A stretch of 64,000 nucleotides of DNA from Chrysopilus asiliformis. Taxonomy: Eukaryota > Arthropoda > Insecta > Diptera > Rhagionidae. The notes beneath the pieces were generated by a model, which was not told where the DNA came from, did no database searches, and saw only the letters and a program-made list of their open reading frames with translations. Made by a program: the position numbers and the translations under genes. The stretch is from positions 78,835,331-78,899,330 of the forward strand of contig OZ035960.1 in assembly GCA_964034945.1 (NCBI GenBank). The letters run 5' to 3'. Position 1 is the first letter of the stretch, and each line of letters opens with the position of its first letter. Below, in pieces: positions 25,208-55,462 of the stretch.

Positions 25208-26154
25208 AAGGGTGATCCAATTGCAGGTACTTTTTCCAATAGGGTTGTTTTGACAGTTCTTATGTGTCAACTGGCTTGTCTATATCACGTTTGTGTTCAG
25301 TATTCAATGCCATTTCATCATGAATAGACTTACGTGTGAACAACGTTTACTAATTGTGGTAACTTATTTCCAAAAGCAGTGCTCAGTTAGGAATTGTTAT
25401 AGAGCTCTTCGTCCACATTTTGGTCGTCATAATCGTCGCACTGAACGTATTATTCGTGAAACCATCACCAAATTTCGAACTAATTTTACACTATTAGACA
25501 TTCATCCATCAACCAGAGTGCGTACAGCCCGTAGTAATGAGAATATTGCTGCAGTAGCATCATCGGACCGTATTTCTTTAAAAATGCGGAAGGAGTCCGT
25601 GTTACTGTTAATTGAGCTCGCTACAGAGCAATGATCAATTAATTTTTGTTGCCAAAAATTCAAGATATTGGTGTAGCTGACTTGTGGTTTCAACAGGATG
25701 GCGCTACATGTCTTACAGCTAACGTAACGATACAATCGCTTTATTGAGGGAAACGTTCGATGAAAACATCATCTCAACAAATGGTCCTGTTAATTGGCCA
25801 CCGAGATCTTGTGATCTGAGGCCATTGGATTACTTTCTGTGGGGATATGCGAAATCTCTTGTTTACGTCGATAAACCCGGAACGATTACAGCTTTGGAAG
25901 CACACATAACTCGTGCTATTCGCGGAATACCGATCGATATGCTTGAAAGAGTGGTCGAAAATTGGACCCACAGAATGGACCATTTAAGAGTTAGTCGTGG
26001 GCTACATTAGAAGGAAATTATCTTTAAACATTAAATGGCATGAACCAAACTAACAACTTAAATAAAGATTTTCCTCAATATATTAATTATTATGTGTTAT
26101 ATATATTAATTATTATGTAAGAAAAAAACAGGAAGCTCTCCAATGATCACCCTT
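25208..26154 (+). mobile_element. Tc1/mariner-type element, internally deleted (copy A)
   Basis: Imperfect terminal repeats AAGGGTGATCCAATTGC and, on the right, AATGATCACCCTT; TA flanks both sides (25206-25207, 26155-26156). The plus strand encodes an N-terminal HTH part (TCEQRLLIVVTYFQKQCSVR, 25320-25560, ending NENIAAVA). After a deletion comes a C-terminal part with LWFQQDGATC and NWPPRSCDLRPLDYFLWGYA (to 26010), giving the second and third catalytic aspartates. In-frame stops and frameshifts exist, and the first aspartate region is lost. Same subfamily as 30535-31445. Confidence 0.85.
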
Positions 26155-26156
26155 TA

Positions 26157-27586
26157 TTTCAATAAATTGTGTTGTGAATACCGTGTCAATTATTTTGCAC
26201 AAATGACAGCAAAAGTTAAGGTATTTTTTAACTCGCCGAAAAATCAGACCTTAAAGAGAAGTGGAAATGTATTTTGCCATGGACGCAAATTCTGAAACGG
26301 ATTGGTGGTTCTAGAAATAATTCTAAATTTAAGAATTAACATTTAGACTTAAGTTTACAAACATACATTCCCCCACAAAGTAAAAATAGTTCGAATAAAA
26401 CATCTACTCTATCAGTATAATTCACAAATACAGGAATTATTCCTAGTTTTTAGAGAAATTTGAACTCTCCTCTCGTGTCCACATCCTTCGTGATCAGATC
26501 AATTACAGAGATCATGGCGTCACTCTGATGAGATCCATTCATTGATTCTCATAATCAAAACTTGATGTTTCCTTTCATAGCTTCTAGCCCGAAAATAATT
26601 AATAATAAATAATATTACCATTAGACGTTCAATTCAGCACACTTTTTTTTCAATGTCGAATATATTATGCCCAATGCGGAACACTTTGCGGGTCGGTTAC
26701 CAATTCATCGTATTCATGAGATAGCTTTAAGCTGTCTTTTTGAGCTTTTAGAAAAACTTTTCGGGACGGTTGCCAATTCACCATATTCATAAGATAACTT
26801 CAAACTTTCTTTTCAAGCCTTTATATGCACTTTGCGTAACATTTATATATTTTTGTTCAAAACCGCAATCTGTGTCTTTGACTTGTGGTACCATTAAATA
26901 AGATCACCGCTAGTTGGTTATTGACAACTCATAGCTTCATAGAGTCATACTGCAATTAAATAGAATCACTAAAAGAAAAAATAATATATGGTGTAAAAAT
27001 ATATACCCATTAACAAAATAGCAAAAGGCCTTGGCCGTCCAATGCCCCCCCTCCTCTTCCTGGCGGCCAAGTGCAACTAAGAGTTTGTGTCGAAATTTCA
27101 GATAGCCTTAAGGTATTGGCATATCAGTCCCTGGCATGCATGCTTATAACAGTTACTGTGTGGCGTGACTGATAAGTGTTTGGCCTGACTGAGTTTTCAT
27201 CTTCAGTCCTGTGTAAAATTCTTAATATATTTTTTTGTGATAAAATCAAATATATTATACATCACGCTTGGGTGTATAACAGCAAATATTTTGGTAAAAT
27301 TAATAGAAGATTTTGTTAATAGTATAATTGTAAATCCAAAGTTTTTGTGGTAATATTAACAGTCAAATCTATAATATTTGCTTTGAATTTTACAAGTGTA
27401 AACTCAATTTTAACTAGTGCATTGGTGAAGGTTGAATATTTCCTGAATTAGAGAATATTATTATTGCGTCTTTTTGTGACGTTCTTTTGTTTGCAAAATG
27501 CACAATTTTTCTATCTGCATGTGTTCCTTAGTCAAAAATTGGCAATTAGATAATAAAATCATATTTTTTTCATATACATAATGACT
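26157..27586. other. intronic stretch upstream of the large polychaetoid exon
   Basis: AT-rich and without a recognised element or exon. Two loose repeats of GGTTACCAATTCATCGTATTC and GGTTGCCAATTCACCATATTC lie at about 26694 and 26771. The final 40 bases before the exon hold a T-rich tract and no AG until CATAG at 27591, as expected of an acceptor. Confidence 0.5.
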
Positions 27587-27591
27587 CATAG

Positions 27592-28994
27592 CAAAATCAT
27601 ATCACATAAAAAAGTCTACAATACATGCGGTCAGCCAGAACTGATGATATATGAGAGTGGTCACAGGAGAGTCGAGGATATTTGCGAAAAGTGCACGTAT
27701 TCACACGGTTCAAAAAATCGCTTCCATGTTTTACTAAAATCTCCATTAGCTGCTTTGAAGAGCGCCTTTTCGAATAAAAATAAATTACTTAGGAGAATGG
27801 GAAGTATGCATGAACCTAATAGAAAACAAAGTTTTTTGAAACGACAACTCTCCATGGTTGAGTGTAATTCTTACCTATATAAAAAACGAACTTCGGATAA
27901 TGACTTTTTTCACGAAATACCTTTTCCAAACGAGAGACAACAGAATGTATTTCCATTTGAAAATCAAGTTTCGGCGGCATATCAAACCTCAACGCCTGAG
28001 CCAATATTAAAAACTAGCAAGTTACTCAGACGACATAGTATTGCCGAACGTGTTGAACCACCAATATATAGATTTCCATCAAAATTTCAATCAGATCAAA
28101 ATGCTATATATCAGACAAAAAAAGGTTCATTTCTTTTACAAGAGTCGAAACCGATAAATACTAAAACCAAAATGCAACAAACTGACATTGAGCCTGTGTA
28201 TTACTTTCAAAAGACTTATAAAAGTCAGTCAGATTGGTTCGAACGAGACATGGCTGTAAGACGATCACGAAGGAATTCTGATAATAGCCAACAGAAATTA
28301 GATATACCTGACAAAATTTATTTAGATAATCGTACTAAAGCACAAAAGATTAGAGAAAACACTCAAAAGTTGGGAGCTGAATTTCGAGAAAGACTACAAC
28401 AAACACGACACGAAAAAATGAAATCTATAACTGAATTGAATGACTTTTCAGAACAAAAAAATATTATTATAGACAAAGCCTCAAATGAATACAATAACAT
28501 AACAGATGATCAAAATTTAAACAATTACGGCCTGAATAAAACTACTAAGGATATAGTAAATTCGCTTCCATTTCAGTATGAAAACCAAGATAAAGCAGGA
28601 ATTCAATACAACAGCAGCTTAGATGACAAACTATTTGAAATTCCACAAAACAGTACTGTAGAAGATTGTTTGGTCTCCTCGTCTAGTTTCAGTGATAAAG
28701 TAGAAAATCTACAATCGCCGGTGACTTTTACAAGAAATGATGGTTTATCTGAAGTTAAAATATCAGAAGAACCAAATAGAAATTCGCGAAAACCGAAATC
28801 ATCGGTTTTTGTCTCAGCTACACGAGATGTTTTTGATGAACTTGGTGGAATACTCTGCGATGCTCAATGGAATGTAATTTTGGATATTCCTTCTGGAGCC
28901 ATTCCAGCTGGTGTTCAACAAGAAATCTACTTTACAGTAACGGATCCTAGGTTTAGTCAACCCGTTGGAGGACCGCCTTTGGATATGGAAAAAG
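27592..28994 (+). CDS. pyd: polychaetoid/ZO-1 homologue, large penultimate exon (linker plus start of ZU5 domain)
   Basis: A 1403-bp open exon bounded by an acceptor (CATAG|C) and a donor (GAAAAAG|GTTTAC). Most of it encodes a polar, basic, probably disordered linker with clusters such as LKRQLSM and SRRNSDNSQQK. From about codon 407 it becomes ZU5-like: FVSATRDVFDELGGILCDAQ, then IPSGAIPAGVQQEIYFTVTD and PPLDMEKG. This is the N-terminal half of the ZU5 domain that ends ZO-1 family scaffolds, cytoplasmic junction proteins. The in-frame ATG at 27581 lies upstream of the acceptor and is not the likely start, since the phase matches the exon ending at 136. Without splicing the frame runs on to 29041, adding 14 unrelated residues. 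Confidence 0.88.
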
Positions 28995-29781
28995 GTTTAC
29001 TTTTTATATTCATTTTCTACATGTTAAAAAAAGTGCATTGATTTTGCCTTGCCTTGCCTTGATAAACTTTGTTGCAAGCATTTTTTGTTTTGACAAATAA
29101 TTAGGATATATTTAAAATCTATCGATGACTAAGGGCCATTTGCGAATACTATGACCAAGAAGTTTTAAAGCTTAAATAATTAACTCTTAATACGAGTAAG
29201 AACCAGTGCTAGTTCATATTTGAGTTAAAAGTGCATATATTAGTAGATGCAAACATATTTGGGGCTTTGGCGGTTTTGGATTTCTGAGAATGTGCTTGAG
29301 CGTGGCTTTGTTTCACGTTCGTTATATTCAAGCGCGTATGCTCGTTTTTTATTTTCAACTAGCTTTTGATACCCGACGTTGCTCAGACAACAATCAAACA
29401 TTTAATTATTTTAATAACGTATTTTGATCGTATTTTAAATATTTTTTTAATATAAATTTTTCGATTCGACGCACTGTGTTTGAGAAAATTATTTGTTTTG
29501 AAGAAAAAGGAACGGTGCCAAATTTAATGCTTCTAAACATAAATTGCTCGTGAGTTAATTTGGATATATACTGGCAGATAAACCTATGTTTTACATAAAT
29601 CTAAACGCGCTCGTGCTATTTTTGGTCCAACGATTAGTTCTATGCAATACAAATATTAGATATGTATACCCTATTATAACTATTATTTAGCAAAAACTCC
29701 GTTGAAATGCAGATATAGCAGTAATCGAATGTCGTAGGATTGATCTTAGTGAGCGGAAAATTTCATTGAGATATTGTAGTA

Positions 29782-30124: not shown

Positions 30125-31682
30125 TGCCCGGTTTTTCAGTGAAAGTTTAAACTCCGTTTAACAGGCGATAAAATTTAAACTGTCGTTTAACACGAAATTG
30201 TGTTTTTCAATGACAGTTTATCTTTAACCAAAAGTTTAAACGGAGTTTAACTTAAACGGCCATGGATGAGGGTTTAAACTGCCGTTTTTTCAAAACTTTT
30301 TTGTCATTTGTAGATCCACGAAGAATAAAACAAATTAAATGGACTGCATCACTTTTTTTTGCTCTCCACAATTTCACTATATTTTTTTTACATACTTGAA
30401 ACAACCGAAATCACAACCGAAATAGCATCCGAAATAACAACCGAAATCACAACCAAAATAACAACCGAAATAATAACCGAAATTAAAATTGTTTTATTTT
30501 TTATAGAATTTTATAATTAATGCGTAAACAAATAAAGGGTGGTTAAATTTTAAGGGCCGATGTTGAATGTGAACTACACCTAAACGTCAAGTTTTTTTCT
30601 GCATTTCATTTGACATTTCTCAATTTCAGACTAACTCAATTTGAACCATGGAAAGATACACAATCGAGCAACGCGTTAAAGTTATTCAGGCTTATTATGA
30701 AAATTTTCGAAGAAAATCATCTTCAGTGATGAGGCACATTTTCACCTCAGTGGATTCGTCAATAAGCAGAACAGCCGCATTTGGGCGAATGATAATCCAA
30801 GAGTGATTGTCGAAAAACCAATGCACCCACAAAGAGTGACTGTTTGGTGCGGTTTATGGGCTGGCGGCATCATCGGGCCGTATTTTTTCCAAAATGAGGC
30901 CGGTCAGGCAGTTACTGTGAATGGTGTTCGCTATCGTGAGATGATAACGAACTTGTTATGGCCCGAATTGGAAGATATGGATGTGGACGATATGTGGTTT
31001 CAACAGGACGGTGCCACTTGCCACACAGCTACCGAAACAATCGCTCTTTTGCGCGACAAATTTAATGGCCGTGTTATCTCACGTGGTGGCGATGTCAATT
31101 GGCCGCCAAGATCATGTGATTTGACACCGTTGGACTTCTTTCTTTGGGGTTATTTGAAAGAAAAGGTGTACGTCGATAAGTCAGCAGCAATTCAAGAGCT
31201 AAAGGATGAGATAATTCGGCACATTAACGGCATAGAACCTCAATTATGCCTCAGCGTCATCGAAAATTTGGACCATCGGATGGAGGTGTGCCGCCGAGGT
31301 CGCGGCGGCCATTCGATTGTGTATCTTTCCATGGTTCAAATTGAGTTAGTCTGAAATTGAGAAATGTCAAATGAAATGCAGAAAAAAACTTGACGTTTAG
31401 GTGTGGTTCACATTCAACATCGGCCCTTAAAATTTAACCACCCTTTATTACGAAAGTGATAACTAGACAAATACATCAATGATTTTATGACTGAAAAATT
31501 TGACATTTCAATATATTTTACTTGTATAGTAGACTGCAAAATTGACAAAAAAGTTTAAACTTTAGTTTAATAAAACGTTCAATTCCGTTTGCCTGAAAAA
31601 CACCAGAAGTTTAAACTTTGGTTTAAACTACATTGTGAGTTTAACTAAACTAAAGTTTAAACTTTCACTGAAAAACCGGGCA
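30125..31682. mobile_element. Harbinger-type MITE (TTA target) interrupted by a mariner-type element
   Basis: Ends TGCCCGGTTTTTCAGTGAAA and its inverted copy, flanked by TTA at 30122-30124 and 31683-31685, the PIF/Harbinger signature. The inside is full of AGTTTAAACT palindromes near both ends and a 12-bp minisatellite (ACAACCGAAATA, about seven units, 30408-30482). The host MITE is about 645 bp once the nested element (30535-31445) is removed. Confidence 0.85.
30535..31445 (+). mobile_element. Tc1/mariner-type element, internally deleted, with 133-bp terminal inverted repeats (copy B)
   Basis: The termini AAGGGTGGTTAAATTTTAAG extend as an inverted repeat of 133 bp (30535-30667 versus 31313-31445) with one mismatch seen. 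TA lies at 30533-30534 and 31446-31447. The start codon of the transposase (30648, MERYTIEQRVKVIQAYYENF) is inside the left repeat, and the 3' end of the open frame is inside the right one. A deletion then joins the N-terminus, out of frame, to KIIFSDEAHFHLSGF (first aspartate). The frame 30803-31354 gives WFQQDGATCHTA (second) and RSCDLTPLDFFLWG (third, 36 residues later). It is non-functional because the DNA-binding region is missing. Confidence 0.88.
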
Positions 31683-44853: not shown

Positions 44854-44945
44854 CTTTTCGACAGCAGCTTTAATAGCATTTTTTACTTGTGTTTCGTCTC
44901 TCACATCAACAATACATGGTAAGGCTTTACCACCTGCTTTCTCAA
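44854..44945 (-). CDS. Hsdl2: HSDL2 homologue, exon 3 (SDR N-terminal half)
   Basis: A 92-bp exon from TTTATTGCAG| to GAAAAG|GTACAT encoding, with the split first codon, VEKAGGKALPCIVDVRDETQ then VKNAIKAAVEK. GGKALPCIVDVRD is nearly invariant in HSDL2 and holds the acidic VDVRD cofactor-pocket turn. It follows the 10.35 kb intron. Confidence 0.93.
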
Positions 44946-45189
44946 CTGCAATAAAAAAAATTGTAAAATTTGTATAACATTTAAAATGTTTATATGGAAA
45001 TATTTGCTTAAAATCATACAGGGCATATCGTCACTTGAGAATTATCGTATCTAACGAAATTTTTTACTTCGAAATTTCGAAATTTTTTTTAGATGGGAAA
45101 TTGGGTTTTGATCCAACGTCTTCCAAACGCGTCAGGTCCCAGAGTTCTAGCGCTTCAAATGGCCGAGAAAATGTGTATTCACTTCATAC

Positions 45190-46340
45190 CATATCCACCA
45201 TTTTCATCGATCGATTTGATACCATACATTTCGCGCATTTTTTAAAGTGATTCTTATCACTTATATCCTCCTCCTCTCCTAGATTGTACAGGGAGCAGAT
45301 CCGGTGATTTGCTGGTCGAAATGTAGATGCATTTAATCTAATTAATCCACTGCAAGCTTTGCATATCCACATGATTTTGGTTCTGTTATTCGAATTTTCG
45401 AAATAAATGGGTCCTTTATTTAAATCAAGGTGTTTATATATCCGATCGCTACTGGCTAGTGCATTTTGAACATCCTGCCTATACTGCATTTGATTAATTT
45501 GTTGTAACATCATATTAGTGTTATGCTCCCATGTTGCAAGATCCGATATCTCCCAATTAATCAGAACAATCCGACAGTAATCCGACAGTATCTGCCACTC
45601 TTTTGATCAGAAGACATTTTAATTCAGTATCTTTATTGACAGCTGATGTAATCTTTCTTCGCCATATTCAAACAAGGACTTTGTAATATATTTTAGGTGC
45701 ATTTGGAATGTGTAAAGATGACACTCTGTGGTTCCTATCACCAAATTCAAGACGTAGTTTGGTGTAAACTTTGGTAAATTAATCACCCTTTTGAGGAAAT
45801 ATCTTCGTAATTTGTCCACTTCTTTAAAGTATTTAAAACCCCACACTTCTGCCGCACAGCAATGGATTGCTCTTGTTACGGAATTAAGAAGTTTCCATTT
45901 TGTAGCTAAACTAACATGCTTCTTTCCAAGAAAACTGCTCCACGTGCTATTCAAATTCAGTTTAGCTTTTTGGTCTCGAAATTTGATATGCTCCGCAAAT
46001 AATAGTCGGGACATTAGCTTCACTCCTAAATAGTCATACGTATTGACAATTTCAATTTCAGCGTCTTTAATAGTCCATTTTTCGTTTTCTCGTAATTTTC
46101 CAGCTATTCTGAAGACCATGATTTTTGATTTTTCCAAGTTGATTATTAAATTCCACATATCGCAATAGGACTCTAAATAGTTTATAATTTTCTGTAAGGT
46201 TTCCACGTCATCGGATAGAATCACTATATCATCTGCATACATCAAAACTCTGATTAATATTTCGTCGATATACAAACCGCCGCCCAGATGATCATGTAGG
46301 AAGCGACGACAGTAAGCATCCTTGTTTACCTAAGCTGAAA
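45190..46340 (-). pseudogene. LINE (non-LTR) ORF2 3' half: RT palm to C-terminal zinc motif
   Basis: The minus strand encodes IRVLMYADDIVILSDDVETL, the YADD catalytic box of a non-LTR RT. It continues through INLEKSKIMVFRIAGKLREN, YDYLGVKLMSR and KWKLLNSVTRAIHCCAAEVW to about 45619. After stops (45520-45620) a second frame (45513-45184) gives KGPIYFENSNNRTKIMWICK and ends with a cysteine-rich CSLYNLGEEEDIS segment, typical of ORF2 C-termini. The element is 5'-truncated and broken. It lies in the same orientation as HSDL2. Confidence 0.8.
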
Positions 46341-46427
46341 TAATCAGAAGTTTCAATTCCATCCCATATTGCAACTTCTGTATTTTCATACAGTTTACCA
46401 AATAGATTCACTATTTTTGAAGAGATT

Positions 46428-47083
46428 CACGTTGATTCTGAGATACGAAGTTAGAAGGCAGAACGTAACGCGGTCTATTCGATTCGCAACGCAAATGATA
46501 TTCTTAAAAACTTCGGATGCATCGCATGCAAACGGATTGTCCGAAACCAGCTGATGTGAGATATTTGCTAGTTGTTTCGTGAATTTTGAACTGAAAATGG
46601 ACTAAACACATTTTCCTATGTCGTAGTGTCTCTTATGGGCGGGCCTAAGCGTTTTAATCCCAATTTTATGTTGCCTCAAAAAAAATTGATTACGTATGAC
46701 CTTTCGCGATGCTTGGATTTTTCATCAATTCGAACGATTCATCCTTCGTATAAGACTTTTTTGCACTCCTATTTGAAATAAAACCCCTTATCCATCATAA
46801 ATATTAAAACACATTTATCAAATTTGCCTTTTGTCAATCACGGCCAACACGAAACGCGAGAAAATTGCTGCGGGCAGTTTAACCTACAAAAAACGCCTAC
46901 TAAGTATCCGAGAATGCCAATTATAGAACAACATCAAATGCGTTGCTCTGCGTTATCCAACTTGACAAGAAAATTGCTCAAATCGAATACTCGCGTATGC
47001 AAGAATACAGATCCTAGATTATCGAATGAAAATCGAGTAAACTAACGCAACGCAACCTAACTTCGTATCTCAGAATCGAGGTG
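46428..47083. mobile_element. 656-bp MITE with CACGTTGATTCTGAGATACG-type ends
   Basis: CACGTTGATTCTGAGATACG...AAGTTAG and, inverted on the right, CTAACTTCGTATCTCAGAAT then CGAGGTG. A degenerate relative is at 244-803. Both flanks read ATT, too little to call a target duplication. Non-coding. Confidence 0.75.
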
Positions 47084-47204
47084 ATTGTACAGTTGTAATA
47101 ATGCAATGAACATCTACGATGAACACAGATTTATGAATACGATGAACACAGAGGCATGGCGTTAAAGAATGCTAGGGATGCATTGTACAAAAGTGGGGTT
47201 TTTT

Positions 47205-47579
47205 CAGAATTCCGGGGGTGGGTACGCAGTTAGTGTTTTAAAATTTTGATTTTGCATGAAGACTGCCCGTTAGGATGCTGAAAAAGTTACCCTGGGGTTT
47301 TTGATGTCGCTCATCCCGTAGAATTTCAAAATGTGAATTAGAAGATCCTGTAAGGATAACAAAAATATCCTTTTTCCCGTGTCTCCTCGGGAAAACTAGA
47401 AATGGGCGATTTTCGGGGTCGCTGATAACGAAACTGATGTTAGAATTCCAAAATTCGAAATGGAATGTCCTGAAAGGGTAACGTTTTGCCCAAAAGTTTT
47501 AAAGCTATTTCTGGGTTTCTTTGTGCAAAATAACTTATGCAAAAAAAATTTGAACCGGCAACGACGGATATGCATCTAG
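47205..47579 (+). mobile_element. Helitron-like 3' fragment
   Basis: Contains GTCGCTGATAACGAA, then CCGGCAACGACGGATATGC and ends CTAG followed by T (47580). Related to 8408-9360 and 21675-21921; 5' TC end absent. Confidence 0.5.
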
Positions 47580-47722
47580 TTGTATTTTAAAACTATAGAA
47601 CATACAACAATCGATACCGAAGCTCTGAACCATTTTAAATAAATTTTAGAGTGTGTGAAGTGCAAAAAATGGGTTATCACGTTTTAACTATCCAAAAATT
47701 ATGAGAAAATGTCTTAGGGGGA

Positions 47723-48217
47723 TGTCACATTGGCAAATCAGCTCCTACAACTGCCTGATCCCGACATCAGGTCGCGCAGCTGCAGGAACCGATTTGATCA
47801 GTTGACGTGGCACACTGAACTGGGATCAGCTGACCTCAAACGTCAAAATGTCGGACTCGGAAGAAGAACTTTCCCAGCTAGTAATTATTTTAAAGTCAAC
47901 ATTATATGAAGTGGAGAGCCTATGACCTAGAGAGTGGCCATGCTACCTTAAAAGACTGTGCTACTGATGGCAATTATTACCGCCAGACGAAAAAAATATT
48001 GAAAATTATCATTTTATTTGATTTAATCTAACAAAAATGACATTAGAAACTACCCGACATGTTCCTGATATCAGCTACAAGTAGGTCAGTTCAGAATGTC
48101 AGCTGCATGTCCCAGACATACAGCTCCCATTTCTTGCAGTGTGCCATGCGCCATTGGATTGCATGGGCAACTGATGTCGGGATCAGGCAGCTGCAGGAGC
48201 TGATCGCCAGTGTAACA
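47723..48217. mobile_element. 495-bp MITE with TGTCACATTGGC ends
   Basis: Long inverted ends: GCCTGATCCCGACATCAG near 47755 and CTGATGTCGGGATCAGGC near 48170, extended outward to TGTCACATTGGC and GCCAGTGTAACA. A block near 47917-47990 (AGAGCCTATGACCTAGAGAG) matches the end of the MITE at 59356-59701, so a fragment of that family is inside. Confidence 0.7.
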
Positions 48218-48230
48218 TATCGCTTATAGT

Positions 48231-48562
48231 AGAAATAAACGATGCAATGGTCGTACCGACTTGTGTTGGACCGATATCGGGCCGACGGTCGTATACAACA
48301 CACACACGATACGATTTACTTGCGATTTTGATCGAACAAATTTTTCTAATCAATTTTTACTACCAAATATCTTTTGAAGCATACAGCACAACAGTTGTGA
48401 AATAATATCGCATGCGACCGCTGGTTTTGGCTCAGCGACGTACGACCGTGCGATATCGGCCCAACCGTCATTTCGTGCGCATACACTATACAATTATAGC
48501 TTGCGGCAGCAAATCGTCCCGACCATTGTACCGACCATTGTACCGACCATCGCATCGTCTAT
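48231..48562. mobile_element. ~330-bp MITE with CGATGCAATGGTCGTACCGA ends
   Basis: AGAAATAAACGATGCAATGG...TCGTACCGAC on the left is inverted at 48535-48562 (ACCGACCATCGCATCGTCTA). Three tandem ACCATTGTACCG-like units lie at 48525-48555. The interior has repeated CGATATCGG palindromes. Confidence 0.65.
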
Positions 48563-49424
48563 TTCTATTCTTAAATATGTAGATACTAATTATGATAGTC
48601 TTAGCAATGTTGAACTAAAGGCTGTCTCAGAAACAAGTTTAATAGCACCTTTCAGACTTACGATTTTCTATCAAAAAATTTAGCTGTTCGCTAAAACTAA
48701 TAAAAACTTTTTTTTAAGATTTTTGCACGATATAATACTCTTTTAAGCCCCTTAACATTAAGTATCAATTGGGCGGTAAAATGGATGGGTCCATAACGGA
48801 TGGGAAGTTATCTCACTGGCGATTTGTGTCTTTGCTATGAGATGAATAATTTCACACCAATTTTTTCCCTCCCCCATTACGAAACTGAACCTTATGTAAT
48901 ATAAATAAAATTCAAATTCGTTATTTGCTTACAAAATTAGAAGTATTGTAGCTTTTACTCTAAGCAATAAAAAAATACAAAAAACAACCTTTTAGGGAAT
49001 TAAATCCTCTTTTCAAATCAGTTTTCCCTACCAGAAAATGTGCAGCGGTTTGCGAGAAAATGCGCGCTGAACGTACAATCAAGTGTCATAACTAGGGCTG
49101 CCAAAAATATTCATTTGCATATTTCTTCTCGTTATGATTTCGGCTTCGGGAGTTTTTTATTCATCCGAATCAATAAGTTTAGAAGTGAATGAAGCCCATT
49201 TGTTATTGCATATACATAAATGGATATTTGACACGTTAATGCATAAATGCATATAACATAATGCATATTTCACAACTTTCATGAAAACCAATTTTTTTGT
49301 ACAATTCAAATTTTAATTCGACTGTGTCAGCTAGAATAAATATTAAAAATAAATAAATACTTTTTTCTTTTACTTTTTTCTACGAAGTATATAAAAAAAG
49401 TATTGTATTCAAGAAAAAAAAATT

Positions 49425-49710
49425 GGAGAAAAGGATAATCACGTTATCCTTACAGGACCTTCCGTTATCCTTACTGACTTTTTAATGTCAGATTCGGATT
49501 CAGCGACCCGAAAAACCCCCAGAATAGATTTTTTTCCGGAAAATTTGGAGAAAAGGATAATCACGTTATCCCTACAGGACCTTCCGTTATCCTTACAAGG
49601 ACGAAGTAGTGAAAATATTGTATTGTCATCGGACTTATATAAGTGTGCAAAATTTCAAGTCAATCGGACAAGTGGAAGTGGGTCAAAATTGGATTGCAAG
49701 ATTTGATCTG
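49425..49710. repeat. dispersed repeat with AAGGACGAAGTAGTGAAAAT, second copy
   Basis: Same orientation as 9650-9990. GGATAATCACGTTATCC is itself repeated at about 49433 and 49555. Confidence 0.65.
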
Positions 49711-49786
49711 ACAAACAAACAGACACGAAGGCAAGCTAAATAAAAGCTTTTAATAAAAAGGAAATAAAACTCTAGGTCAATTTTTT

Positions 49787-50903
49787 TATACCCGTATGGT
49801 GAAACCAAAGGGTATATTAACTTTGCCTTACCGTTTGTAACGCCAAGTTCCCGTCATCACACACAAAAATTAATTACACCAGTGTGTTTAGAATGATAAA
49901 CATAACAAAAGCTATAATTGCCAATCTGGCAATCATTGGAGACCCGTATGGTGATATTCGTATCAAAATTCGAACAGTTATACCAAAATTCCAATTTGAA
50001 GTCAAACTTTCCAATAAGATTTTTTAAAATTTATTCCAATCGGATTTTGATGTATGGGAGTTTTATGTAGAATCATATTCTAAATAACTTTTGTTCTTGC
50101 ACTTTTTTGATAAGATGCACCGTTTTTGAGATATTCACAAAAAACGATTTCGTTCGTATGGGGGGTACCCCCCCTAATTGTCCATTTTTGCCCATTAACG
50201 AACTTAGCCTCGCATTTTACGAAAAAAGGGTCTGTGCAAACTTTCAAGTCTCTAGCTCAATCCGTGCGCCCGCAATCCGCGCCACAGACAGACAAACGGA
50301 CAGACAGACGGACAGACAGGCAGACGGACAGACAGACGGACAGACGGACGGACAAGCAAAAATTAAATATTTTTATCATTCTAAACACACTGGTGTAATT
50401 CATTTTTTTGTGCGATGACGGGATCTTGGCGTTACAAACGGTAAGGCAAAGTTAATATACCCTTTGGTTTCACCATACGGGTATAATAATTTCTGCATGT
50501 CCGTTCGTCTGTCTGTGGCGCGGATTGCGGGCGCACGGATTGAGCTAGAGACTTGAAATTTTGCGCAGACCCTTTTTTCGTAAAATGCGAGGCTAAGTTC
50601 GTTAATGGGCAAAAATGGACCATTAGGGGGGGTACCCCCCATACGAACGAAAATGTTTTTTGCGAATATCTCAAAAACAGTGCATCTTATCAAAAAAGTC
50701 CAAGAACAAAAGTTGTTTAGAACATGATTCTACATTAAAGTTCCATACATCAAAATCCGTTTGGAACAAGTTTTAAAAAAATCTCATTGGAAAGTTTGAC
50801 TTCAAAGTGGAATTTTGATAAAACGGTTTGCCGTTCACTTAAATCACCATACGGGTTTTCAATAATTGCCAGATTGGCAATTATAGCTTTTGTTATGTTT
50901 TAA
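49787..50903 (+). mobile_element. DINE-1/Helentron-like copy 4, interrupted by an inverted copy of its own family
   Basis: The plus-strand 5' block (49787-49898, to GTTTAGAATGATAAA) and the rest (50488-50903, from TTCTGCATGTCCG to GTTATGTTTT) are halves of one element. Between them is a complete minus-strand family member. The 3' half ends with the subfamily-2 block (GCCGTTCACTTAAATCACCA). Confidence 0.72.
49896..50487 (-). mobile_element. DINE-1/Helentron-like copy 5, nested in copy 4
   Basis: A complete minus-strand copy from AAACATAACAAAAGC to CACCATACGGGTATAA, with an expanded GACA/GACG microsatellite at 50283-50352 and the GGGGGGTACCCCCCC hairpin at 50158. Confidence 0.75.
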
Positions 50904-51075
50904 TCCCCAAAGAATTCGCGAAAAAAAGAAATTCTGGAAATTTTTGTAATACGTTGGCACTTGCCACCCCTTGCCACTGCCTCTCTGCACATTTTCTAGA
51001 ACGAAAAAGAATTAATTCTCCAAAAGGCTGTTTTTAGACTTATTTTAAATGGCTCAAAAAAAAGTTGCATTAGTT

Positions 51076-51254
51076 TTAACACGTTGATTGCCAAGCAAAT
51101 TTTTAAAGACATGTAGGCCTGTAGAATGTATGTAGAACGTATACATGCAGAATGCAGACTTGGCTATCCAAAATTATTGCCGGGGTACCTCATGAAACTT
51201 AGTGAGTTTTTCGCTGGCTATCAAATATGATAACCATGGCAGCGAATGTGTTAA
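51076..51254. mobile_element. 179-bp piggyBac-type MITE
   Basis: TTAACACGTTGATTGCCAAG and, inverted, TTAACACATTCGCTGCCAT, with TTAA as target. The same terminal family as 15243-16479 (TTAACACGTTGAC). It lies 42 bp from the target duplication of the P-like element. Confidence 0.72.
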
Positions 51255-51754
51255 TTTGGAATTTCCTCACTCGTATGAACAGCGAAGTTCTTTAAGGTTC
51301 AACCACAAATAATATACAGATGACCGGAGCTCAAAGAAAACCATGTTATATGAAACCAAATCAAGCGAGCTTTTAAAGGCCGAAAAACTTTTTCCTCTGT
51401 GAGAGAACTTTGTCTTCGGTTCTCTTTTAAAATGATTTCAAGCTTTCGCCTAAATGCAAACACAAGCTACATGCATTTCATGTTGGAAAAATTTAGCGGG
51501 AGCGGTGTATTTCTTGTAATTCATTGTTCAAAATTCATTGATCCTCAGAATGTTTGTTTTTAATCGACCGTAGGTTTTCGTTCCTTAGTTGATCTGATGC
51601 GATATTGTTATGCGTGGTCATGCTTAAATTCGATTCTTTAATGTTTCTTTTTTGGTAAAAAAAATAATCGAGAGGTTTATAAAATTGCTATCAAAGATCA
51701 TTAAACATAGGAAGATGTTCAGAATTTTTAGCGCGACAATTATTACGACCGAGA

Positions 51755-51952
51755 TAAGGCACTTTACAGTTAGTTAAGGAATTGAGTCATGCTCACTGTC
51801 TCGGTCGCAATACTTTGGGGGAAACTAAATTACAGCGGAGTGAGACATAATGAGGGAACTGCTTACAAAGTATTGCGACCGAGAATGGGAAATCGATGCA
51901 GCCAAACAGGAGCATGACTCAATGCCTTAACTAACTGTAAAGTGCCTTATCT
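51755..51952. repeat. imperfect palindrome inside the P-like element
   Basis: ATAAGGCACTTTACAGTTAG plus TTAAGG...TGAGTCATGCTC (51755-51795) is inverted at 51911-51952 with one or two differences. Nested inside, CTCGGTCGCAATACTTTG is inverted at about 51870-51892. It could be an internal regulatory hairpin or a small element that jumped into the transposon. Confidence 0.8.
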
Positions 51953-52204
51953 GGGTCCCTTATTTGAAAACTAACAAGTGTTTAGTGTACAGAAATTTTT
52001 TCATACCATCGGTATCCAACGATTACCAGAGTAATAACAGTACCAATAATCTTTGTACCTTGTGCAGTTCTTGGCGTGACCCAGGAAGTTCCAACGTGGA
52101 GGAGACTGCACGTTACTTCCCTCGGGGAGTTTGGTTATTGGCAGGCCCCCTCGCCTCTGCCTTTAAAATATTTAAAAAACTTTAATGTCTTATAAGAAAA
52201 ACCA

Positions 52205-54838
52205 TTATGAATTGGTCAGATTACTGATTTTCTTATTTTTGCTGTATTTTTTGAACCTTACATTTTTTTTGGCATCCATCTCCCATTTGCAATTTTTTCT
52301 TAAAAGAACCAACATAAAAAAGTCCAAAACTTCTAATCGATGATGGTGACAGGGGTGTGATTGGTTAAACCAAGAAACATTATCTCGAATACATTTTTGA
52401 ACTAACGTTTGTCGAATTTTAGAAATGTTCGGTGTAGTTTTAAATATTTCGGAAAACCTACGAACATATTCCCTGCACATTTCGAAAAATTTTGACGAAG
52501 GACGCAGTAATCCAGTTTCAGCGTTACTATATTCTTTTACTGTAATAAGGATTTCAGATCTTTTAGTATGGCTGGAAGGATTTTCAGTCATTTCGGTATT
52601 ACAATCGGCACAAACGGTTCCAAGTTTCTTTTGCATTTTCATTATGCAATATCCAGCAAAATATCTAATTGCAGCATCATTTATGTCGTTTATGGTGCTT
52701 ATAAAATTAGTGTTTGTTGGATTATCATTATCCTGCAATTCAGGGCCGCAGAGATGGTTTAGCGCAATGTCCTCATCCTGATTAGCAGTTGGAACTCCAG
52801 TCTGATTAGTAGTAATAATAGTCCAGTCAATTTCAACAAGCTCCTGGGTTTCGCGATCGGATTGGCAATTAGAAATTTTGGAATCAAATATAAATTTTAT
52901 AGCTATTAACTTTGCATATATAAGACGGAATTCTGCCAAGCTTGGATTAGTTTTGTTAGCGTTTCGAGCTCGGATACGAGAAAAAAAGTTTTCCAGTGGA
53001 TCCTGATTGAATTTCTTCCAATTTATGAAGTTTAATTCAGGGTAAATGATAAACAATTGTCTTGTTATTTCCAACATTGACCTAATAGACATAACCAAAC
53101 CATCTAAGCAAAAGGAACAGTGTTTTTGATTCATTATTTTTATTTTTAGAATATATTCTTGCATTTTTAATAAAAAGGGAACCGCACTTTCATCCTTGAC
53201 GAAATAAGGTTTTCCATTTAATATATCGAATAATTTATCAATTTTTTCGAAAAATTTGGCAGTATTGAGTGCGGTGTCTTTCAGGTCTTCTGGAAATCCA
53301 TCTAAAGCCAAAATTGCCAGTATCCCTTTAGACATACTGTGGCTCAAAACTTGCACTGCTAATTTTACAGACATTTTTTGGAAATTAGTCGGATAAACGT
53401 GTGTATATGATAGCCTTGGACATACTTTTGAGGTTTCGTCTTTCTCTAAATCATACACAAATTTTACAATATTCCAACTCACTAAGCCATCAGGCGTTTC
53501 GAAGTCATGCGATATTAAATTATTTCGGATACTTTTAAATAAGTGCGGTACGTCGTAGGCTACAAAAATGGTCCGGTCAAGATGGATGAAAAATGAATTT
53601 TGAAATGTTACTCCCATGTCTTTAATATATTTTCTATTTGTGGGTCCCTGATCACAAACTATGCCTCTTACATTAAGTCCTGTATTGTTGCAAACTTCGA
53701 TTGCTCTTTCTACTTGTATTTTAAGAATATTAGCTGGTATAGGCGATGGTGTTGCAACATAAAAGAGAACGTGATTAAATTTACCTGTAAGACTTCGCAC
53801 CATGAAGACACATACGGATTTGGAGGAAACGTTTTCCCTACAGTTATTCCCATAATCAACAAATCCGTCTACTTGATCTCCAATCTTATCATATGCTAAA
53901 TTCTCTTGAATAGCCATTTCGTCAAAAATAAGTATAATTTCCTTTTCATGCTCTTGCAATAACGAAACTTGATGCTTTATTCCGTTTAACACATTTTCAT
54001 TCAATCCAGGCGGAATATTTTTAATTAATATCCAACTTTGGAGTGAAGTCGTGCAAGGTAGTCGCAAACCCAGTTGTTTCCTTAAAAAATCATAGCCGGC
54101 AGAAGACCGAAAAAATATGCACTGCGAAAGCCATTTTTCATCTTCATTATAGCAAGGACTATTATCGACATTCAATATCATTTTCGCAAAAATCTTAGAA
54201 TTTTCATTAATATTGTTCAGCGAATCTATGGTGTCACTTAATGCAGTATTTGCCTTTTTCTGTAATTTTAAATTTTGATTTCTTACCCTAATTAATTTAA
54301 TTTTTAAAAATTTATTTACTTTTCTAGAGTTCTTAAGTTCAGTTTTCAATTTTTTAACTTCCGTGTTTAGTTTTGCTATTTTTAATCTATAAAATTTGTC
54401 ATTTTTGAAACTTTTTACGCATCTTTCACAAAAAACATTACTCTCGATCAATTCACTTTCTTTAGAAGAACCTGGAAATAGTTTGGCAGAAATATTTATT
54501 TCTTCTAAGGAAAAATCACCTTCTATTCTCTTTTTACCATATGTTTTGGGTTGGGCAGCTAAATTTTTGGGATTGGAGTCAGGAAAATCTAAAAATAGGG
54601 TTGGGACGGCATTGGACTTTAATTTTTTCTTGCCAAAATATATATTTTCAAAATGAATGCTGCAAATATACGGCTTTTTCCTGCTTTGAATCACATCCTT
54701 TGATGCTTCCGCGGCATTCAGCCAGCCAGAATATTTTTTGTTTTCTGGCCTAGGGAATTGAAAAAATTTTCGTTGCGGAAAATCTTTCAATTTAGCTTGG
54801 CAGCTAATAATCGCACATTTAGTTCGTTCCCAAGACAT
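52205..54838 (-). CDS. P-element/THAP9-type transposase, intact 877-aa ORF
   Basis: Single uninterrupted frame. Residues 1-85 are a THAP zinc finger (C8, C13, C59, H62; CSIHF and AVPTLF motifs) for sequence-specific DNA binding. 148-200 is a lysine/leucine-rich coiled coil (LKIAKLNTEVKKLKTELK) for dimerisation. About 230-430 is the RNase H-like half with LIFDEM (D306) and GIVCDQG (D396). VAYDVPHLFKSIRNN (427-440) opens the GTP-binding insertion of the family. NQDPLENFFSRIRARN (E616) closes the RNase H fold, and 735-760 has the conserved YFAGYC segment. Candidate D-D-E: 306, 396, 616 (inferred). Drosophila P needs splicing of three introns; this frame has none. Length is close to vertebrate THAP9. 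The start at 54838 matches where THAP domains begin. It has the same orientation as HSDL2. Confidence 0.93.
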   Translation of the reverse strand: MSWERTKCAIISCQAKLKDFPQRKFFQFPRPENKKYSGWLNAAEASKDVIQSRKKPYICSIHFENIYFGKKKLKSNAVPTLFLDFPDSNPKNLAAQPKTYGKKRIEGDFSLEEINISAKLFPGSSKESELIESNVFCERCVKSFKNDKFYRLKIAKLNTEVKKLKTELKNSRKVNKFLKIKLIRVRNQNLKLQKKANTALSDTIDSLNNINENSKIFAKMILNVDNSPCYNEDEKWLSQCIFFRSSAGYDFLRKQLGLRLPCTTSLQSWILIKNIPPGLNENVLNGIKHQVSLLQEHEKEIILIFDEMAIQENLAYDKIGDQVDGFVDYGNNCRENVSSKSVCVFMVRSLTGKFNHVLFYVATPSPIPANILKIQVERAIEVCNNTGLNVRGIVCDQGPTNRKYIKDMGVTFQNSFFIHLDRTIFVAYDVPHLFKSIRNNLISHDFETPDGLVSWNIVKFVYDLEKDETSKVCPRLSYTHVYPTNFQKMSVKLAVQVLSHSMSKGILAILALDGFPEDLKDTALNTAKFFEKIDKLFDILNGKPYFVKDESAVPFLLKMQEYILKIKIMNQKHCSFCLDGLVMSIRSMLEITRQLFIIYPELNFINWKKFNQDPLENFFSRIRARNANKTNPSLAEFRLIYAKLIAIKFIFDSKISNCQSDRETQELVEIDWTIITTNQTGVPTANQDEDIALNHLCGPELQDNDNPTNTNFISTINDINDAAIRYFAGYCIMKMQKKLGTVCADCNTEMTENPSSHTKRSEILITVKEYSNAETGLLRPSSKFFEMCREYVRRFSEIFKTTPNISKIRQTLVQKCIRDNVSWFNQSHPCHHHRLEVLDFFMLVLLRKNCKWEMDAKKNVRFKKYSKNKKISNLTNS

Positions 54839-55298
54839 AATATTAAATTTGCGAAGTAAAAATTAATTTTACTGATCGAGGTTTGCTTTTTCTTTTGAAC
54901 ACCTCAAAGAACTAATGCAAAATGAATGAAAACACTTAAGGAACAATCGACTTAATCTGTGGAATATTTCCCACTTAAAATCAAAACCTTGCCCTTACCA
55001 CAAGCGTTCCCTAGCCTAACTTTGCATGCTACAAATGTTTTATACAACCCCACCGCCGCGCCATTACACAAAAAATTCAACACATTTATTACTACATTCA
55101 CTTGTGTGTGTTCGGCATACGATTTGACGAGAAACTTCGCTCAACATCGTATCTCTCCACTCTCGCTCAAAATTTAAGTCAAAAGCTTTTGTCGGCTGAT
55201 CTTCTGTCGGCTGATCGTTAAAAATTGTATCATGAGTTTCTTTGAGCTCCGGTCATCTGTATATTATTTGTGGTTCAACTTTCGCGATTCTACTGTAC

Positions 55299-55462
55299 CT
55301 TCTTCTGCTGCGGAGTAAATAGTGCCAGGCAGTTTAGGATGTGGATCTGCAGTTTTTGCAGCTATAACTATATTTGCACCGTCACTGGCCGCTTTTAAAG
55401 CAATTGCCTTTCCTATACCCCGAGATGCTCCAGTAATGAAAAGGGTTTTACCAGCCAATTTC
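55299..55462 (-). CDS. Hsdl2: HSDL2 homologue, exon 2 (Rossmann NAD(P)-binding start)
   Basis: From AAAGCAG| to GAAGAAG|GTACAG, encoding KLAGKTLFITGASRGIGKAI then ALKAASDGANIVIAAKTADP and HPKLPGTIYSAAEE. TGASRGIG is the SDR dinucleotide-binding glycine motif; AAKTA...HPKLPGTIY is specific to HSDL2. It joins exon 1 through a 54-bp intron (55463-55516). The P-like element begins 26 bp after its donor. Confidence 0.95.

Follow-up and report, generated by a model that had tools for sequence, protein, structure and literature searches.

Does this stretch of fly DNA hold a complete P-type transposon that could still move, and if so, where does it belong among the known P-superfamily elements? The stretch comprises 64,000 nucleotides of Chrysopilus asiliformis (contig OZ035960.1, positions 78,835,331 to 78,899,330; hereafter the window, whose positions we use throughout), and a structurally intact, intronless P-element-like transposon had been predicted in it from the letters alone. 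Our analysis indicates that the element is very probably a full-length P-superfamily transposon of the cut-and-paste kind, potentially autonomous, and of the type without introns and with 7-bp target duplications to which hoppel/1360 and Galileo belong. The element is ordinary in kind and well preserved, and its notable point is its apparent intactness.

Boundaries and coding capacity of the element

The element and its ends are delimited as follows.

51304..55272, minus strand (gene strand): whole element of 3969 bp, assigned to the P-superfamily DNA transposons from termini, duplication, reading frame, domains and fold
51304..51339, plus strand: left terminal inverted repeat, 36 bp, perfect (repeat comparison)
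55237..55272, minus strand: right terminal inverted repeat, 36 bp, perfect (repeat comparison)
51297..51303, no strand: left copy of the target-site duplication, GTTCAAC, 7 bp, fitting the 1360 consensus GTTNAAC
55273..55279, no strand: right copy of the target-site duplication, GTTCAAC (direct repeat)

The termini match as inverted repeats at 36 of 36 bases, and the two bases further inward differ. When a 22-base piece of the terminus was searched for with up to three mismatches, it was found at two sites in the window, which are the two termini themselves (0 expected from 100 shuffles). Inverted termini together with a duplication of 7-8 bp characterize the P superfamily, and the element has 36 bp and 7 bp, respectively. 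The original prediction thus placed the element exactly and was right about its identical ends of ~36 bp and the intact state of ends, duplication and reading frame. Its duplication of 7-8 bp narrows to 7 bp, GTTCAAC on both sides; an 8-bp duplication was rejected on the length of this flanking direct repeat. In a self-comparison of the window (E 0.01), no further pieces of the element were found beyond the two termini and an internal foldback, and the matches of 30 homologues to the window (E 1e-3) were confined to the transposase open reading frame (ORF).

The ORF and the domains of its product are listed below.

52205..54838, minus strand: transposase ORF, 877 amino acids, single exon (ORF, Pfam, homologues, fold)
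54593..54817, minus strand: THAP zinc finger, residues 8-82, with C8, C13, C59 and H62 (Pfam PF05485)
53612..54010, minus strand: N-terminal part of the RNase H domain, residues 277-409, with D306 and D396 (Pfam, alignment)
53195..53545, minus strand: guanosine triphosphate (GTP)-binding insertion domain, residues 432-548, including D538, which corresponds to fly D444 (Pfam, alignment)
52916..53014, minus strand: C-terminal part of the RNase H domain, residues 609-641, with E616 (Pfam, alignment)

All 877 codons are uninterrupted, the sole stop being the terminal one, as originally described; when the element was simulated 300 times with a first-order Markov model, the longest stop-free stretch averaged 106 codons and reached 194 at most. 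Ten of the 30 homologues span 91% or more of the transposase at 27-44% identity. In an end-to-end alignment check that took in 12 of the 30, six of these ten (P0002-P0007) aligned from end to end, and P0011 ended early at the C-terminus. Since full-length homologues match the single ORF, the protein appears complete, with no missing exon and no intron needed. A split or incomplete transposase gene, which we also considered, was ruled out by the same alignments. The nearest homologue, P0001, shares 64% identity over 65% of the transposase and lacks the N-terminal part. Five of the 30 carry names (Dendroctonus, Uroleucon), and 22 are tagged with the source 'lgn'; their contigs, 2.4-4.6 kb in length, may be assembled transcripts, so that these homologues may or may not be intronless themselves. 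No confirmed relative was found in the viral sequence collection. The species-genome collection held one P-type transposase relative with several broken frames (L001:1442-2415), on a contig assigned to a Bacteroidetes metagenome bin, where it is probably eukaryotic contamination.

Four Pfam domains, namely THAP, the N-terminal RNase H part, the GTP-binding insertion and the C-terminal RNase H part, exceed their curated cut-offs. The THAP domain that had been proposed scores 40.5 bits against a cut-off of 23.9 with all four zinc ligands present, and the split RNase H domain with its GTP-binding insertion is recognized by PF21787, PF21788 and PF21789. The best solved relative by sequence is the Drosophila P transposase (6p5a, 2e-17), whose aspartate/aspartate/glutamate residues are in register. 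The catalytic residues of that enzyme are given as D230, D303 and E531 in the consulted part of a published account (PMC8230255). The alignment pairs D306, D396 and E616 with these, so that the predicted triad was both correctly numbered and correctly matched, and it pairs D429 and D538 with fly D339 and D444. Downstream of the second aspartate stands a D-x(2)-H motif (D429-V-P-H), which is in register with fly D339. Among the 30 homologues, D396 and E616 are conserved in all, D306 in 29 (one gap), D429 in 28 and D538 in 29 (the remainder being gaps). An AlphaFold2 model, built from 13 sequences, matched the solved P transposase structures 6pe2 (E 1.5e-25) and 6p5a (E 5.5e-25) with template modelling (TM) scores of 0.81-0.82 by target length. 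The next fold match was Hermes (E 1.9e-05), and among the best 50 of 337 matches all other chains had TM scores of 0.36 or less. Domains, sequence match and fold together corroborate the predicted membership in the P superfamily.

From homology, the 877-residue transposase would bind near the element ends through its THAP finger and dimerize through a coiled coil, for which the helix spanning residues 137-194 of the model is the candidate. The GTP-binding insertion would use GTP to assist synapsis, and the split RNase H fold with D306, D396 and E616 would cut the element out. The excised element would then be joined to a target palindrome resembling GTTNAAC, with the cuts staggered by 7 bp.

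Several observations weigh against a full-length, potentially autonomous P-superfamily transposon. The element is a single copy within the 64-kb window, and perfect short termini are by themselves no proof of youth. Two domains stay below their cut-offs, the helix-turn-helix PF12017 (17.8 against 23) and the P C-terminal PF12596 (12.3 against 22.6), and the resemblance to solved THAP1 domains is weak (E 0.038 and 0.052). The fold model is of middling quality, with a mean predicted local distance difference test score of 73.3 and a predicted TM score of 0.51, and it is weak at residues 85-139, at 652-716 and at the C-terminus. No exact repeat of at least 10 bases is common to the noncoding parts of both ends, where diverged ones may exist, and the highest-scoring subterminal alignments do not stand out from shuffled sequences (their scores are equalled or exceeded in 237 of 300 and in 102 of 300 shuffles). 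The insertion site also departs from the P-group motif ANAGT...ACTNT (PMC3276498), which is a tendency and not a rule.

Intactness, mobility and origin

Whether the element can move at present is about evenly balanced in our judgement. The strongest competitor of our reading, to which we give slightly less than an even chance, is a structurally intact yet inactive copy, that is, a young fossil that is silenced or carries a hidden damaging missense change. The long foldback in the 3' noncoding part is consistent with this, as it represents at least one probable insertion gathered by the element, unless it was present from the origin. Against this, the tested zinc and acidic positions are intact, stops are absent, and the ends and the duplication are perfect.

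The single exon could also mean that a P element was retrotranscribed and processed, losing its introns secondarily, and Reiss et al. 2003, known to us by title alone, reportedly describe hoppel (1360) as intronless and raise retrotranscription for it. However, both termini directly abut the P-type 7-bp duplication with no poly-A tract between, which argues that transposase carried out this insertion. Introns may nevertheless have been lost at some earlier time, and we regard the retrotranscribed origin as very unlikely. It is more improbable still that a THAP9-like, P-derived host gene is held here by selection instead of transposition: such genes are known (PMC7776569, in the part consulted), and the long intact ORF lies in sense orientation in a host gene intron, but perfect termini and duplication flank the element directly, whereas human THAP9 is described there as having no flanking terminal repeats.

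A full-length P-superfamily transposon that is intact would matter in three ways. As a natural intronless copy, it would let the 7-bp and 8-bp P branches be compared biochemically; it would allow restraint to be studied where the intron-3 splice switch is missing; and it could, prospectively, be tried as a germline vector. The reconstructed consensus Galileo showed no transposition in embryos, according to the available part of PMC3688188.

Noncoding parts, insertion site and neighbouring sequences

Three features were noted in the noncoding parts of the element.

55039..55044, minus strand: TATAAA lying 206 bases upstream of the ATG, which may be a core promoter (sequence offset)
55190..55216, minus strand: two copies of GATCAGCCGACA, +57 and +72 counted from the right end, whose position makes them candidate THAP-binding sites (compare Galileo and P)
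51747..51957, no strand: foldback hairpin in the 3' noncoding part (fold energy z -16.2; TTATT on both sides)

The THAP-binding sites of Galileo lie at +63 to +80 and those of P at 53-63 and 41-51, as given in the portion of PMC3688188 consulted. The right-end pair is a candidate for such sites from its position alone, and the left end has no counterpart of this repeat. Symmetric subterminal repeats, another candidate, were rejected on the shuffle scores and the lack of a shared exact repeat given above.

The arms of the foldback are 48 bp long with 96% complementarity and an inner perfect pair of 19 bp, and its transcript would fold at -113.5 kcal/mol, a value that none of 200 shuffles reach. 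It is probably a nested miniature inverted-repeat transposable element or a foldback insertion; the TTATT on both flanks suggests the former, although five A/T bases are weak evidence. One may speculate that it serves as a source of double-stranded RNA. Lacking introns, the element would escape the intron-3 splice switch of Drosophila P, as would hoppel and Galileo. One could go further and picture an active intronless transposon of a non-drosophilid fly that makes full transposase in any tissue, with the 3' foldback feeding small-RNA silencing as the brake that replaces the splice switch, but we consider this scenario unlikely.

The insertion lies next to a host exon.

55300..55461, minus strand: HSDL2 host exon, N-terminal part; donor GT at 55298, followed by 19 intron bases up to the duplication

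The next HSDL2 exon starts at 44945 after an acceptor AG, which gives an intron of 44946-55298. The element therefore sits 19 bp inside this intron, in sense orientation relative to the gene. The exon at 55300-55461 begins at about residue 5 of its relatives, and therefore an earlier HSDL2 exon probably exists upstream. Among the best 120 of 7999 scored HSDL2 relatives, those with names are mostly Diptera, along with some beetles, thrips, a whitefly and a wasp, at identities of 67% or less, which points to an insect source, probably a fly. With one copy of the duplication removed, the empty site reads AAG-GTTCAAC-TTT. Of the 63994 positions scanned in the window, 30 carry the word GTTNAAC, both duplication copies counted.

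The same intron contains a reverse transcriptase fragment at 45619-46329 (RVT_1), which from its look we take to be of the non-LTR kind. Elsewhere in the window, the stretches 25254-25634 and 30701-31354 hold one DUF4817 helix-turn-helix piece recognized by Pfam and one DDE-like piece without a Pfam match; both resemble mariner/Tc1-type transposases. A long open stretch at 27557-29041, whose last part contains the beginning of a ZU5 domain, is probably a host gene exon.

Comparison with known P-superfamily elements

We compared the element with P-superfamily members described from flies, mosquitoes and vertebrates; the publications cited here were available in part, and the statements drawn from them are limited to those parts. 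P elements from numerous other animals are catalogued in Repbase. A quick tree of 32 sequences with approximate likelihood ratio test (SH-aLRT) support pairs the ORF with P0001 (support 100) inside a set of eight sequences (100). Drosophila P entered the tree only as residues 105-560; its branch is very long (2.75) and its placement unsure. Because the hoppel and Galileo proteins were absent from the tree, it leaves the subfamily undecided.

The core domains, catalytic residues and fold are those of the D. melanogaster P transposase, at 24% identity over 434 aligned residues. Canonical Drosophila P differs in that its gene is split by introns, whereas the element has a single ORF with full-length homologues, and in its 8-bp duplication. 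It also carries internal inverted repeats of ~11 bp, whereas here no exact repeat of 10-12 bases is shared, diverged ones being possible. Its termini are 31 bp long, and its splice switch acts at intron 3 (PMC7776569). The P elements of Anopheles gambiae come close in transposase size, THAP domain and short termini: three reference elements have uncorrected ORFs, transposases of 876-895 amino acids with THAP domains and termini of 27-31 bp (PMC1562414). They are unlike the element in having three exons, with one more intron in one family, and 8-bp duplications. With such ORFs published, intact P-superfamily copies, which had been called rare, are at least not without precedent. Vertebrate THAP9 is likewise a P-type transposase with a THAP domain and, in human, D304, D374 and E613 (PMC8230255), but in human it lacks flanking termini, and the zebrafish gene has 13-bp termini with 8-bp duplications (PMC7776569).

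Galileo of the Drosophilidae has an ORF of 912 amino acids that 'does not present introns', a THAP domain and a 7-bp duplication (PMC3688188, PMC4168063), all of which recall the element. The empty site fits the Galileo target motif AANGT...ACNTT, which occurs six times in the window. Unlike here, the termini of Galileo are repetitive and very long (1.2 kb in D. buzzatii versus 36 bp), and its core duplication is GTANTAC instead of GTTCAAC. In the texts consulted, no intact natural Galileo transposase is reported; a D. willistoni copy comes closest, with an ORF of 905 amino acids once its start codon had been curated by the authors.

1360, also called hoppel or ProtoP, has short termini. It is the other P-superfamily element of D. 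melanogaster treated in PMC3276498, where 274 of 279 insertion sites predicted from Illumina data have 7-bp duplications with the consensus GTTNAAC. The single insertion studied here resembles it, by description, in lacking introns and in a 7-bp duplication that fits this consensus; the departure from the P-group motif noted above sets the two apart. The single exon and the GTTNAAC-type duplication of 7 bp give the element the layout of the branch that has no introns and makes 7-bp duplications, but not the long termini that Galileo has. The proposal that its layout falls outside that of canonical Drosophila P is thus correct for the missing introns and the 7-bp duplication, but such a layout is not novel, as hoppel/1360 and Galileo are already intronless.
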